64,000 bases of DNA, taken from NCBI RefSeq assembly GCF_900163865.1, contig NZ_FUKU01000027.1, positions 1 through 64,000 on the forward strand. Reading direction: 5' to 3'. The stretch comes from Sphingobacterium sp. JB170. GTDB taxonomy: Bacteria > Bacteroidota > Bacteroidia > Sphingobacteriales > Sphingobacteriaceae. The position numbers were made by a program, and so were the translations under genes. Positions 20,405 through 44,582 of the stretch are shown here, piece after piece. The notes beneath the pieces are model-generated. The model was given only the letters and a program-made list of their open reading frames with translations. It was not told the origin of the DNA and searched no databases. How positions within the stretch are numbered: position 1 is the stretch's first letter; each line of letters begins with the position of its first letter.

Positions 20405-21550
20405 TTAATTTAAAACATAAATCCTCCTTCCTTTGGTTTCAAATGACACCATGCCGGTTAGGGCAAGCATATTCAAAACTTCATCGACTTGTTCTAACCG
20501 AGATATGTTGCCAGAAAAAACTTGGTCCGATACCTCTCCTTTGTATATAACCTCGACGTCATACCAGCGTTCGATTTTTCGTAAGATGCTTTGAAGATTT
20601 TCTGCATCGAAGACAAACTGGTCACGTTGCCAGGCCAGCACGTTTCCATCGACAAACTTATCCGTTACCATCCGAGAATTCTGTTTGTTATACGTTGCCC
20701 GTTGCCCGGGGACTAAAAGGAACTCTTCTTGGCCCGATTTTATCGTCACCTTTCCTTCCAGCAGCGATGTTTGAATAGACTGCTCGTTATCGTATGCATT
20801 CACGTTAAATTTAGTTCCAAGGACAGTAATTTGTTGATCGCCTGCATCGACGATAAACGGTTTGTTTTTATCTTTTGCAACTTGAAAATAGACCTCACCT
20901 GTGATTTTCACTGTTCTATTATCTTGGGAAAATGTAGTAGGAAAACGGATGGAGGAAGCGGCGTTTAACCACACTTTACTCCCGTCTGGCAGGTCGATCT
21001 GGTATTCTCCTCCTCGGGGTGTTTCAATCGTATGGTATTTCACAATGGCATCTCTCCTAGTCCCTTGATAGGCTAGTTGACCACGTTTAGTTTTTGAGCC
21101 GACCACTTGACCATTGACAACTAGTTCACCTACATTTAGTTCTTCTAAATCCATTTGCGTCCCATCTTCGAGCGTTAAAGTGGCCCGGAAGCCACCAGCT
21201 TGAATCTGCTCGGACGTGGAATCTATGTACGAATCGTTTTTGATGAAAGGATCGCTCGTTCGAAAACGAATGAGTAAACCCAAGGTAATGCATACGATGG
21301 CGGCTGCGGCAATTTTGTAAATCATTTGTTGCCGCTGAATTCCCCCTTTACGTGTTCGTATATGATTCTGAATTGTAGATTTAAGGGTATTCTTAACGGT
21401 CTCTTGGGGGCCCATCAAACCCTTATCCCAATCTCCATCACGGAGCAGGAAATCGTCGGGATAAGACTCGAGCAATTCAATTTCTTGTTTCGAACAAAGC
21501 CCTTGCTCGTATTTTTCGTACAATTCAATATACGCCTGTTTGGTTAACAT
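20405..21550 (-). CDS. FecR family anti-sigma factor
   Basis: 381 aa from the ATG at 21550 (MLTKQAYIELYEKYEQG), preferred over a longer frame to 21634 because FecR N-termini usually look like this. Short cytoplasmic sigma-binding region, one transmembrane helix (MIYKIAAAAIVCITLGLLIR, ~residues 75-95), periplasmic FecR domain with ETPRGGEYQIDLPDGSKVWLNA, GEVYFQVAKD and VLGTKFNVNAY motifs, and a C-terminal DUF4974/STN-contact domain (LQSILRKIERWYDVEV). It would hold the FecI sigma factor until the SusC STN domain signals substrate. Unusually it points away from the fecI-type gene (21711-22322, plus strand), with which it shares a 160-bp divergent region. Confidence 0.93.
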   Translation of the reverse strand: MLTKQAYIELYEKYEQGLCSKQEIELLESYPDDFLLRDGDWDKGLMGPQETVKNTLKSTIQNHIRTRKGGIQRQQMIYKIAAAAIVCITLGLLIRFRTSDPFIKNDSYIDSTSEQIQAGGFRATLTLEDGTQMDLEELNVGELVVNGQVVGSKTKRGQLAYQGTRRDAIVKYHTIETPRGGEYQIDLPDGSKVWLNAASSIRFPTTFSQDNRTVKITGEVYFQVAKDKNKPFIVDAGDQQITVLGTKFNVNAYDNEQSIQTSLLEGKVTIKSGQEEFLLVPGQRATYNKQNSRMVTDKFVDGNVLAWQRDQFVFDAENLQSILRKIERWYDVEVIYKGEVSDQVFSGNISRLEQVDEVLNMLALTGMVSFETKGRRIYVLN

Positions 21551-21710
21551 AAAATGTTTATTAGGTCTACATTGATATAGAGACATTTTTTGTACACGAC
21601 ACACATACTTAATTGTATTTTTTTTAACTTGCATATGTTATCTTGATATTTCCTAGATAGATTGAGGTGTTAACCAGTTGTAAATCAATGTATACCGACT
21701 AGAAACTGTT

Positions 21711-23507: not shown

Positions 23508-23721
23508 ATTGCTGTCAATTAATATAAGCAAATTACGATTTTTTTTTGGTCCAGACAATGCGTTAGAATAGTTTGAATTATTTTTCATCCCTCTGTAGCG
23601 AAAATAGGATTAACTCCGTTTCAACCTGCAAAAAGACAATGGTTATGGTTGGAATATAATTGGTGGTTCAGGTAACATAAATTATTTTGCTAAATTGGCG
23701 TATCAGAACAGACGATTATAG

Positions 23722-24333
23722 GTGAATATTGTTCAGCAACATTGGAGGAAAAAGAAACCATTGGCTTTACGTGAGGCATTGGCTGACTGTGTTTTGAATA
23801 AAACAGAACGCTCGAAGTCTTTTCTCTATAAAAAGTATTATGGTTATGTCATGGCAGTAGTCGGGCGTTACGTGGCGATGGAGATGGAGGCACAAGAAGC
23901 AGCCAATGAAAGCTTTGTGAAAGCATTTCGGAAGCTTGAAACTTTCCAAATGCACGAAGACGATGATATTTTAGACCGTACGTTTCGTTCCTGGCTTGCG
24001 CGGATCGCCGTAAATACATCAATAGATTTGTTACGCGCAAAAAAAACAACATATACTTATGACGAGGTCTCGGAAGAGAATTTACTTTCACATTCGGTGA
24101 TGATAAATGATCAATTAGCAGTCGATGATATTATGAAACTATTGCAACGACTGCCGGATATTCAGCGAGCGATATTCAATTTGTTTGAAATTGAAGGATT
24201 CACTCATGAAGAAATTGGTAAAAAGCTTGATATCCCGGAGAGTACCTCTAGAACGTACCTGACTAGAGCGAAGCATAAGTTGCGCAAATTATACGTAGAA
24301 GAATTTAGTGTTTCACATAACATGCATTCTTAA
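23722..24333 (+). CDS. ECF RNA polymerase sigma factor
   Basis: 203 aa with a GTG start at 23722 (no better in-frame ATG before sigma region 2). Region 2 about 30-100: YKKYYGYVMAVVGRYVAMEMEAQEAANESFVKAFRKLETF, with the SWLARIAVNTSIDLLRAKK stretch; region 4 about 135-190: LPDIQRAIFNLFEIEGFTHEEIGKKLDIPESTSRTYLTRAKHKLRK, a clear helix-turn-helix. ECF type. The next gene starts 12 bases downstream and encodes a membrane-anchored barrel protein that probably serves as its regulator. No typical FecR or SusC is adjacent. Confidence 0.92.
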   Translation: MNIVQQHWRKKKPLALREALADCVLNKTERSKSFLYKKYYGYVMAVVGRYVAMEMEAQEAANESFVKAFRKLETFQMHEDDDILDRTFRSWLARIAVNTSIDLLRAKKTTYTYDEVSEENLLSHSVMINDQLAVDDIMKLLQRLPDIQRAIFNLFEIEGFTHEEIGKKLDIPESTSRTYLTRAKHKLRKLYVEEFSVSHNMHS

Positions 24334-24345
24334 TTGCAGTTAAAA

Positions 24346-25722
24346 ATGAAAGACAACAAGAATAAAGAATTAATAGAGGTTATTAAGCAGCAGTTAAAAA
24401 ACGGCCCACAACTTCCGTATAAAGAGGGTGCATGGGAGTCGTTTAAAGAAAAATACGAAACTGCTCCGACACGCAAGGCACTAGTGCCACTTTGGGTTGC
24501 CGCGGCAGCTTCGGTGGTTGTGTTGGCATTTGGCGCTCTATTTGTTTTTCAAAATAGCAATGACGCCACGAGCATGCAGCTAACACGTTCATCTATCGAT
24601 ATGCCTGACTCAACGGAGAATCGCGGTGACCAAGTGCCGCACAACAATTCGACGGATATGGTTAGCGGTATTCCTTCCGGCCCGGCAAAGAGTGATCAAG
24701 GAACCGCGGGTAGTGAAGAAGAGCTAGCAATCCTAAGCTACGAGCAGCAGCACATTCTCAGTGGACGAACCCGGAGTGAAGACACGCATGACGAATTCAT
24801 TAAAGAAACGCTACACGTAGCTTCGATAGCACCGATACATGTGGCAATTACACCCCAACTCGAAACTGTTAATCCTTCCGTGCGGAATAACCTTCCTATT
24901 GCACTTTTCCCGGACCGCACGATAGGCGTCACGCCTTACGAACAAAACGATCTTGTGAGCGGCAGTGAGGTGGATGAATCATACGCATATACTGCTCAGG
25001 CGGGTCGGAACATATCACCTAAAAAAGTAAGGCTGGCTAAAAATGTAAGGCTCGGCGCATTTGTAAGCCCATCGGCAACCGAACAAAGCTTTGATTTGGG
25101 AGGAGGATTAGTATTAGCCTACCAAATCTCCGATAAACTAGCTGTTCGAACTGGAGCATCATTTAATCAGTACGAGGTTGGTATATTGGGCGGATCGGCG
25201 CGCCCTGAGAATGGAACTCAGGACGCACCACCAACAGCTGCTAGTGGTGCGGCTCTCGTTTCTGAGAATGTTCCCTACCGGAAAAACAATGTCATGATGC
25301 CGAGCTTAAATTCCGTTTCGAGTAAAATGCAAACATTAGATGTTCCTTTGGAAATCAAATATAACCTTTCCAAAGATTACTACATTGTAGGGGGCGCCTC
25401 GTATGCGTTTGTTCTTTCTCAAGAGCGCTATAACTATTATTCTGAATACACCGACGCGATTACTTATTCGAGTGCATCTGATTCCGATAAACCGACAAGC
25501 ACACCGCAAAAAACGGTAGAGCGAAAAATAAAAAGCGGAACGGATAACGTCGATGATGACGGTTTTGGTGGTTTTGTAAACTTTTCAATTGGGAAGAAAA
25601 CCGGACTTACTAAAAACTTGAACATATCAATAGAGCCATTTGTAAAAATTCCCGTTGGTTCGTTCAAACAAACTGACATGAACTATACTAATGGCGGAAT
25701 TCGTATAATTACGAATTTCTAA
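24346..25722 (+). CDS. Membrane-anchored protein with C-terminal outer-membrane-type beta-barrel, putative sensor/anti-sigma partner
   Basis: 458 aa from the ATG at 24346 (a TTG at 24334 is in frame). Residues 1-44 are charged and cytoplasmic-looking (KELIEVIKQQL, AWESFKEKY), residues ~46-68 are one transmembrane helix (LVPLWVAAAASVVVLAFGAL), ~70-228 a low-complexity Ser/Thr/Asn/Gln-rich stretch, and ~230-458 a small barrel-like domain (RLGAFVSP, FDLGGGLVLAYQISDKLAVRTGASF, DVPLEIKYN) ending ISIEPFVKIPVGSF... IITNF with a terminal Phe. Sequence cannot show whether the barrel is in the outer membrane while the helix is in the inner. It follows the ECF gene directly, so an anti-sigma role is inferred. 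Confidence 0.65.
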   Translation: MKDNKNKELIEVIKQQLKNGPQLPYKEGAWESFKEKYETAPTRKALVPLWVAAAASVVVLAFGALFVFQNSNDATSMQLTRSSIDMPDSTENRGDQVPHNNSTDMVSGIPSGPAKSDQGTAGSEEELAILSYEQQHILSGRTRSEDTHDEFIKETLHVASIAPIHVAITPQLETVNPSVRNNLPIALFPDRTIGVTPYEQNDLVSGSEVDESYAYTAQAGRNISPKKVRLAKNVRLGAFVSPSATEQSFDLGGGLVLAYQISDKLAVRTGASFNQYEVGILGGSARPENGTQDAPPTAASGAALVSENVPYRKNNVMMPSLNSVSSKMQTLDVPLEIKYNLSKDYYIVGGASYAFVLSQERYNYYSEYTDAITYSSASDSDKPTSTPQKTVERKIKSGTDNVDDDGFGGFVNFSIGKKTGLTKNLNISIEPFVKIPVGSFKQTDMNYTNGGIRIITNF

Positions 25723-43997: not shown

Positions 43998-44582
43998 TTA
44001 AAAGTGGAACTGTACTCCCAGAGATGGTGATAAAGAGTTCGCATCTAAACCAAATTCATTAGAAGAATCGTAGGAATCTTTACCATCGAAATGATTGTAG
44101 TACAATCCGCGAACTTTCAATTCTATACCAATTTTCGGTGTTGGGAAAAAGGCAATACCCGGAGCAAGCTCAACACCGTAAGAAGCAAATTTATCAGTAC
44201 GGTTGGTCGAAGGATCTTCGAATTCCACTTCACCCCATTGCATCGGAACGGATAATTGTGCAAAAAACTTAAACTGACCATCGCCGATATAATTTCTTAC
44301 GAAAGGAGCTAGATTAAAAGAATTTGATTTGTTCACATCGATTGAATTATCGACTTTACTCCAATTATATCCGACAGCAGTTCCTACAGCCCAATTGTCG
44401 CTAACGAAATAGCCGACGGTAGGGTTAATAGAGAAACTTGAAGTTTCAGCCTCACTATCATCTACGTTATTCGTATGAAAGCCGACTTGTCCACCTACAA
44501 TAAATTTCCCCTGTTCAGTTTGTGCTTGTGATGCCATTGTCAATCCAGCAACGGCTGTCAGAGTTAGTAATAATTTTTTCAT
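43998..44582 (-). CDS. Small outer-membrane beta-barrel (porin-like) protein
   Basis: 194 aa. Signal peptide about 20 residues (MKKLLLTLTAVAGLTMASQAQ). The rest is an eight-stranded-type barrel: FIVGGQVGFHTNN, PTVGYFVSDNWAVGTAVGYNWSKV, NLAPFVRNYIG, QLSVPMQW, IGIELKVRGLYY and a terminal SLGVQFHF with an aromatic C-terminal residue. General OmpA/OprF-like small barrel of the PF13568-type; function unknown. Monocistronic, long leader upstream. Confidence 0.85.
   Translation of the reverse strand: MKKLLLTLTAVAGLTMASQAQTEQGKFIVGGQVGFHTNNVDDSEAETSSFSINPTVGYFVSDNWAVGTAVGYNWSKVDNSIDVNKSNSFNLAPFVRNYIGDGQFKFFAQLSVPMQWGEVEFEDPSTNRTDKFASYGVELAPGIAFFPTPKIGIELKVRGLYYNHFDGKDSYDSSNEFGLDANSLSPSLGVQFHF

Follow-up and report, generated by a model that had tools for sequence, protein, structure and literature searches.

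The closest described relatives of the locus analysed here are the dual membrane-spanning anti-sigma (Dma) proteins, a recently described family of Bacteroides (PMC13088901; the founding description, PNAS 2024, is cited through PMC13088901). From N- to C-terminus these proteins comprise an anti-sigma domain, a transmembrane helix, a tether that is long and disordered, and a beta-barrel, and they are described as extending from the cytosol to the outer membrane (PMC13088901). The dma genes adjoin those of ECF21 sigma factors, and Dma proteins are confined to Bacteroidota (PMC13088901). According to genetics the anti-sigma factor represses its ECF partner; when dma1 or dma2 is deleted, Das1 or Das2 is set free and vesicle output goes up, an effect that has been reported only in B. 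thetaiotaomicron (PMC13088901). Comparable systems are the M0N98_03760/03761 pair of Phocaeicola vulgatus, a sigma/anti-sigma pair responding to envelope damage, and EcfO (PMC9308784). Both are linked to envelope stress, the signals named there being the toxin BcpT (Phocaeicola vulgatus) and oxidative stress (EcfO, Bacteroides fragilis), and, as in the locus described below, a periplasm-spanning anti-sigma factor with a C-terminal outer-membrane barrel is predicted from a gene downstream of the sigma gene (PMC9308784).

The window, i.e., the whole stretch of 64,000 nucleotides analysed from Sphingobacterium sp. JB170, carries a gene pair of this kind. The first gene (23722..24333, + strand, GTG start) encodes an ECF sigma factor of 203 aa with Pfam/NCBIfam matches (Pfam Sigma70_r2, E 2.7e-10; Sigma70_r4_2, E 1.7e-15). 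It ends with TAA, and a gap of 12 bases leads to the gene of a 458-aa barrel protein (24346..25722, + strand), the length being counted from the ATG common to the homologues (an upstream TTG given by the ORF tool would make it 462 aa). The pair proposed in the first-pass annotation is real. With a probability of about 0.86 it is a Dma-type sigma/anti-sigma system, a reading that builds on what was established computationally, namely the domain layout, the pairing with the sigma gene, the homology to Dma-like proteins and the recurrence of the promoter, and in which the 458-aa protein would bind the sigma factor, sit in the outer membrane, receive a signal there and release its partner.

Another sigma factor system, the FecI/FecR/SusC relay at 16.9-22.3 kb of the window, likewise comprises an outer-membrane sensor, a membrane-anchored anti-sigma factor and an ECF sigma factor. 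Unlike in the 458-aa protein, however, sensor, FecR anti-sigma factor and sigma factor are separate proteins there. FecR (20405-21634) gives strong FecR-domain matches, whereas Pfam searches of the 458-aa protein found no FecR periplasmic domain (PF04773/PF16344), FecR_C, TonB-receptor or plug domain, which bears out the earlier claim that the pair differs from this relay.

The four parts that the first-pass annotation had read in the 458-aa protein were recovered by hydropathy, AF2 and Pfam. Residues 1-44 (24346..24477, + strand) make up a predicted cytoplasmic anti-sigma segment with the motif PYxEGAWExF and two helices (3-19 and 29-38, at low pLDDT in the AF2 model). The single inner-membrane helix follows at residues 46-68 (24481..24549, + strand); it is the only hydrophobic segment of the protein, has R/K before it, is placed at 47-67 by AF2 and reaches a hydropathy of 2.46 over 19 residues, the best windows starting at residues 49-51. 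Residues 70-228 (24553..25029, + strand) form a disordered, presumably periplasmic linker of approximately 160 aa, rich in Ser/Thr/Asp/Glu and with pLDDT mostly 23-41. The C-terminal part of about 230 residues (229-458; 25030..25719, + strand) is a predicted outer-membrane beta-barrel of eight strands ending in Phe. Cysteine is absent from the protein. Overall confidence is low for the AF2 full model, which was built on 5 Sphingobacterium sequences (mean pLDDT 44, pTM 0.35), and PDB sequence searches with N-terminal and full-length profiles gave no significant match.

Among the homologues, median identity to the window protein is highest in the N-terminal segment (46%), lower in the barrel domain (32%) and only 10% in the linker, the length of which varies from 111 to 214 aa. 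The presence of the linker is conserved, its sequence is not. The N-terminal segment and the barrel thus appear to be under selection, while the middle serves as a tether. Across 27 diverse homologues, Y25, G28, W30 and E31 never vary, nor do several positions of the barrel.

The barrel domain matches OMP_b-brl_2 (PF13568) at residues 248-376 with 34.5 bits (Pfam cut-off 27), and in the AF2 model it has eight strands between residues 234 and 457. One could argue that this domain is a periplasmic sensor, soluble or associated with the inner membrane, of an anti-sigma factor that crosses one membrane only, since a membrane helix fused to an outer-membrane barrel poses an assembly problem and the model is only moderately confident (best strands pLDDT 70-84). 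However, amphipathic alternation is clear in most of the eight strands, the terminal Phe is nearly invariant (present in at least 90% of the homologues), and the Foldseek matches in the PDB are exclusively small outer-membrane barrels (OmpW, OmpA, OmpX, Ail and NspA; best E 3.4e-5). Dma proteins are moreover described as extending from the outer membrane to the cytosol (PMC13088901). We consider the one-membrane arrangement very unlikely, and the earlier expectation of an outer-membrane-like barrel instead of a soluble fold agrees with the structure prediction. That one polypeptide bridges both membranes and carries an envelope signal to the sigma factor is supported.

The match to a common outer-membrane barrel family could also mean that the protein is an ordinary OmpX/PorT-like outer-membrane protein and merely under the control of the upstream sigma factor, its helix serving for export and its first 44 residues binding nothing. 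Other OMP_b-brl_2 proteins of the genome, e.g., that at C30:369657, are indeed plain exported outer-membrane proteins, and the sigma and barrel genes would use one promoter. Yet the N-terminal segment is the best conserved part of the protein, with an invariant GxWE core, and it is common to Dma-like and to barrel-less anti-sigma-like proteins; furthermore, 44 residues ahead of the helix and a linker of about 160 residues do not resemble a signal peptide. An ordinary outer-membrane protein is therefore very improbable.

Homology to Dma-like proteins was assessed with a comparison set of six Bacteroidales-type loci of the same architecture, all from NigD-containing genomes; judging by the coordinates, the sigma gene has a NigD gene less than 1 kb away in four of the six (L142, L144, L148 and L159). 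Profile-profile comparison (hhalign) with these Bacteroidales Dma-like proteins gave 98.6-99.4% over the N-terminus and helix, 96.4% for the helical segment of about 44 aa alone against the Dma-like N-termini and 96.8% for the barrel alone against the Dma-like barrels; an unrelated control, N-terminal segment against barrel, gave 0.1%. Both ends are thus profile-homologous to NigD-adjacent Bacteroidales members. Maximum-likelihood analysis of 80 sigma factors places the window sigma factor in one group (100/97) with the partners of Dma-like proteins from across the class; this group is set apart from the other ECF sigma factors of the genome, with the exception of the sigma factor of a split system described below. 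The partner sigma factor is likely of the Das/ECF21 type.

We therefore file the 458-aa protein in the Dma family on the grounds of architecture, homology and gene context, with sigma binding as a prediction that has indirect support from the homology to Dma, whose repression of the ECF partner is known from genetics (PMC13088901); the tie to Dma1-3 of B. thetaiotaomicron is one of architecture and NigD adjacency, not of direct comparison with the named sequences. It shares with Dma the four-part order, the ECF sigma gene alongside and a Bacteroidota host. It differs in that the host is a Sphingobacterium and the sigma gene stands directly first in a conserved two-gene unit. In addition, whereas Dma1 acts through nigD1, the predicted target here is an FKBP-like lipoprotein; no NigD_N gene was found in the window's genome. 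The architecture has already been described, and the pair belongs to a known class, not to a new one. The new findings are a conserved promoter, a predicted FKBP-like target, occurrence throughout the genus and a split paralogue.

Homologues of the 458-aa protein are present in all 94 Sphingobacterium genomes and in 221 of the 301 genomes of the family, and the pair is widespread in Bacteroidota. In all of the approximately 75 genus and family loci read, an ECF gene is located directly upstream, usually -25 to +40 bases from the ORF start. Such a distribution shows that the pair is not a chance arrangement. Pairing with ECF genes, anticipated in the first-pass annotation, extends to nearly all class-level loci, the sole exception (L131) being a gene with just 39 bases of contig ahead of it. 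This supports a distribution of trans-envelope anti-sigma factors well beyond gut Bacteroides: in at least one other genus, a distant relative, they are near-universal regulators, and within the family of that genus they are common. A second match in the genome (C74) was rejected as a FecR-like protein, the common part of which is membrane-helix-like sequence only. Class-level profile matches in L117-L124 (f21, f45) were likewise set aside, as they cover linker and helix only and the proteins there are different, barrel-less and anti-sigma-like. In one genome (G089; L078 1999-3175) the Dma-like protein is broken up into a frame of 183 aa and an overlapping one of 222 aa, probably due to a frameshift or an assembly error.

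Upstream of the sigma gene lies a predicted ECF-type autoregulatory promoter, TGTAGC-N17-CGTT (23594..23620, + strand; -35 TGTAGC at 23594-23599, -10 CGTT at 23617-23620). In 33 of 36 distinct genus loci, TGTAGC-N(14-17)-CGT stands 119-134 bases ahead of the start of the sigma gene, compared with 0.2% of shuffled upstream regions; the spacing is nearly always N17 and the -10 nearly always CGTT or CGTA. Seven loci of other genera also carry the TGTAGC motif. Its presence even at loci in which no divergent UspA-like gene was found speaks against a role as the promoter of that gene. The window holds two matches against 0.18 expected. Genome-wide, however, TGTAGC motif matches are not enriched (15 vs. 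17 in the control), so only phylogenetically conserved motif positions were retained.

In five genomes, intergenic copies of the motif are repeatedly found upstream of genes for exported proteins. The most consistent is an FKBP-like lipoprotein of approximately 215 aa (PF00254, E 2.2e-4, just above the cut-off, in the window's species). The motif precedes it in all five genomes and, more broadly, at 24 of the 27 genus loci parsed; the distance is mostly 50-60 bases, and the spacer is exactly N17 in 19 loci and N16 in five. Homologues of this lipoprotein are present in 92 of the 94 genus genomes; on contig C47 of the window's genome (G000:C47 490598-491997; L277) there are tandem FKBP-like lipoprotein genes, with TGTAGC-N17-CGTT ahead of the second. 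Less tested candidate targets are a META-domain lipoprotein (two genomes), a CpsB/CapC-like phosphatase (three genomes), an OMP_b-brl_2 protein and a DUF4397 lipoprotein. Given the promoter at 33/36 sigma loci and 24/27 FKBP-like loci, autoregulation of the sigma gene and a target in envelope folding are predicted, and the candidate targets together suggest an envelope-maintenance regulon. The conserved promoter provides a direct, testable regulon.

A Dma-type mechanism could operate as follows. The 458-aa protein would be anchored in the inner membrane via its one helix, and its cytoplasmic N-terminus of about 44 residues would keep the neighbouring ECF sigma factor inactive. When sigma factor and N-terminal segment were modelled by AF2 as a TAA-read-through fusion, the segment was modelled with low confidence (pLDDT near 40); the best Foldseek matches of the fusion model were sigma chains only. 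The disordered tether would span the periplasm, which is 20-30 nm wide; approximately 160 aa have a contour length of more than 50 nm, so the tether is long enough to cross it. The eight-strand C-terminal barrel would act as the sensor in the outer membrane, and perturbation of the barrel or of the outer membrane (by a ligand, by antimicrobial damage or by faulty assembly of the barrel) would lead to release of the sigma factor. Free sigma factor would then transcribe its own operon from TGTAGC-N17-CGTT as well as a small envelope regulon with the FKBP-like lipoprotein as its most consistent member.

Release would most simply proceed through proteolysis of the exposed tether and subsequent intramembrane cleavage. 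Proteolysis is the usual release route for membrane anti-sigma factors, e.g., RseA. Alternatively, the barrel could be coupled to the sigma factor directly, by a conformational change or mechanical pull through the tether and without proteolysis. A single polypeptide could pass on tension, and no protease site was identified in this analysis; the tether, however, is disordered, unconserved and variable in length, making it a poor rod and a good protease substrate, and we consider direct coupling unlikely compared with proteolytic release.

The split system mentioned above is encoded in the same genome (G000:C53 44653-46700; loci L163, L085 and L190) and is paralogous to the fused pair. Its ECF gene (180 aa) overlaps that of a barrel-less, anti-sigma-like protein of 255 aa, in which a short N-terminal segment containing a conserved Trp is followed by a membrane helix, a linker and a basic C-terminus. 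The gene of an exported OMP_b-brl_2 protein of 268 aa starts 8 bases past the anti-sigma-like gene. Homologues of the split anti-sigma protein are found in 62 of the 94 genus genomes, and the order ECF, anti-sigma, barrel holds in all 20 genus loci read in detail. The split-system sigma factor falls inside the group of Dma partners, near the Bacteroidales branch (with weak support there). Its loci have a conserved promoter-like sequence, TGCAACC then CGTC, different from TGTAGC-N17-CGTT, so the fused and split systems probably have separate regulons. We give roughly even odds to the broader proposal that fused and split forms of one system coexist, each with its own promoter, the tether being one of two ways of coupling and the fused form driving the FKBP-like regulon. 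The coexistence of a split form allows one to ask, by a cis/trans comparison, whether tethering of sensor barrel and anti-sigma factor is needed for signalling. A locus in another family (L110) has a similar order, with a separate exported downstream protein of barrel-like appearance.

The window contains a second OMP_b-brl_2 protein (43998-44582, - strand), which stands alone and is just above the Pfam cut-off. In one family of the class, proteins of three loci (L106 1504-2784, L115 1468-2709 and L128 1942-3246) have a sigma partner of the same group as well as the N-terminal segment and helix, and in the place of the barrel they carry at the C-terminus a domain similar to the type IX secretion signal CHU_C (PF13585 in L106, E 2.6e-4, below the cut-off). 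These are possibly anti-sigma factors reporting on type IX secretion.
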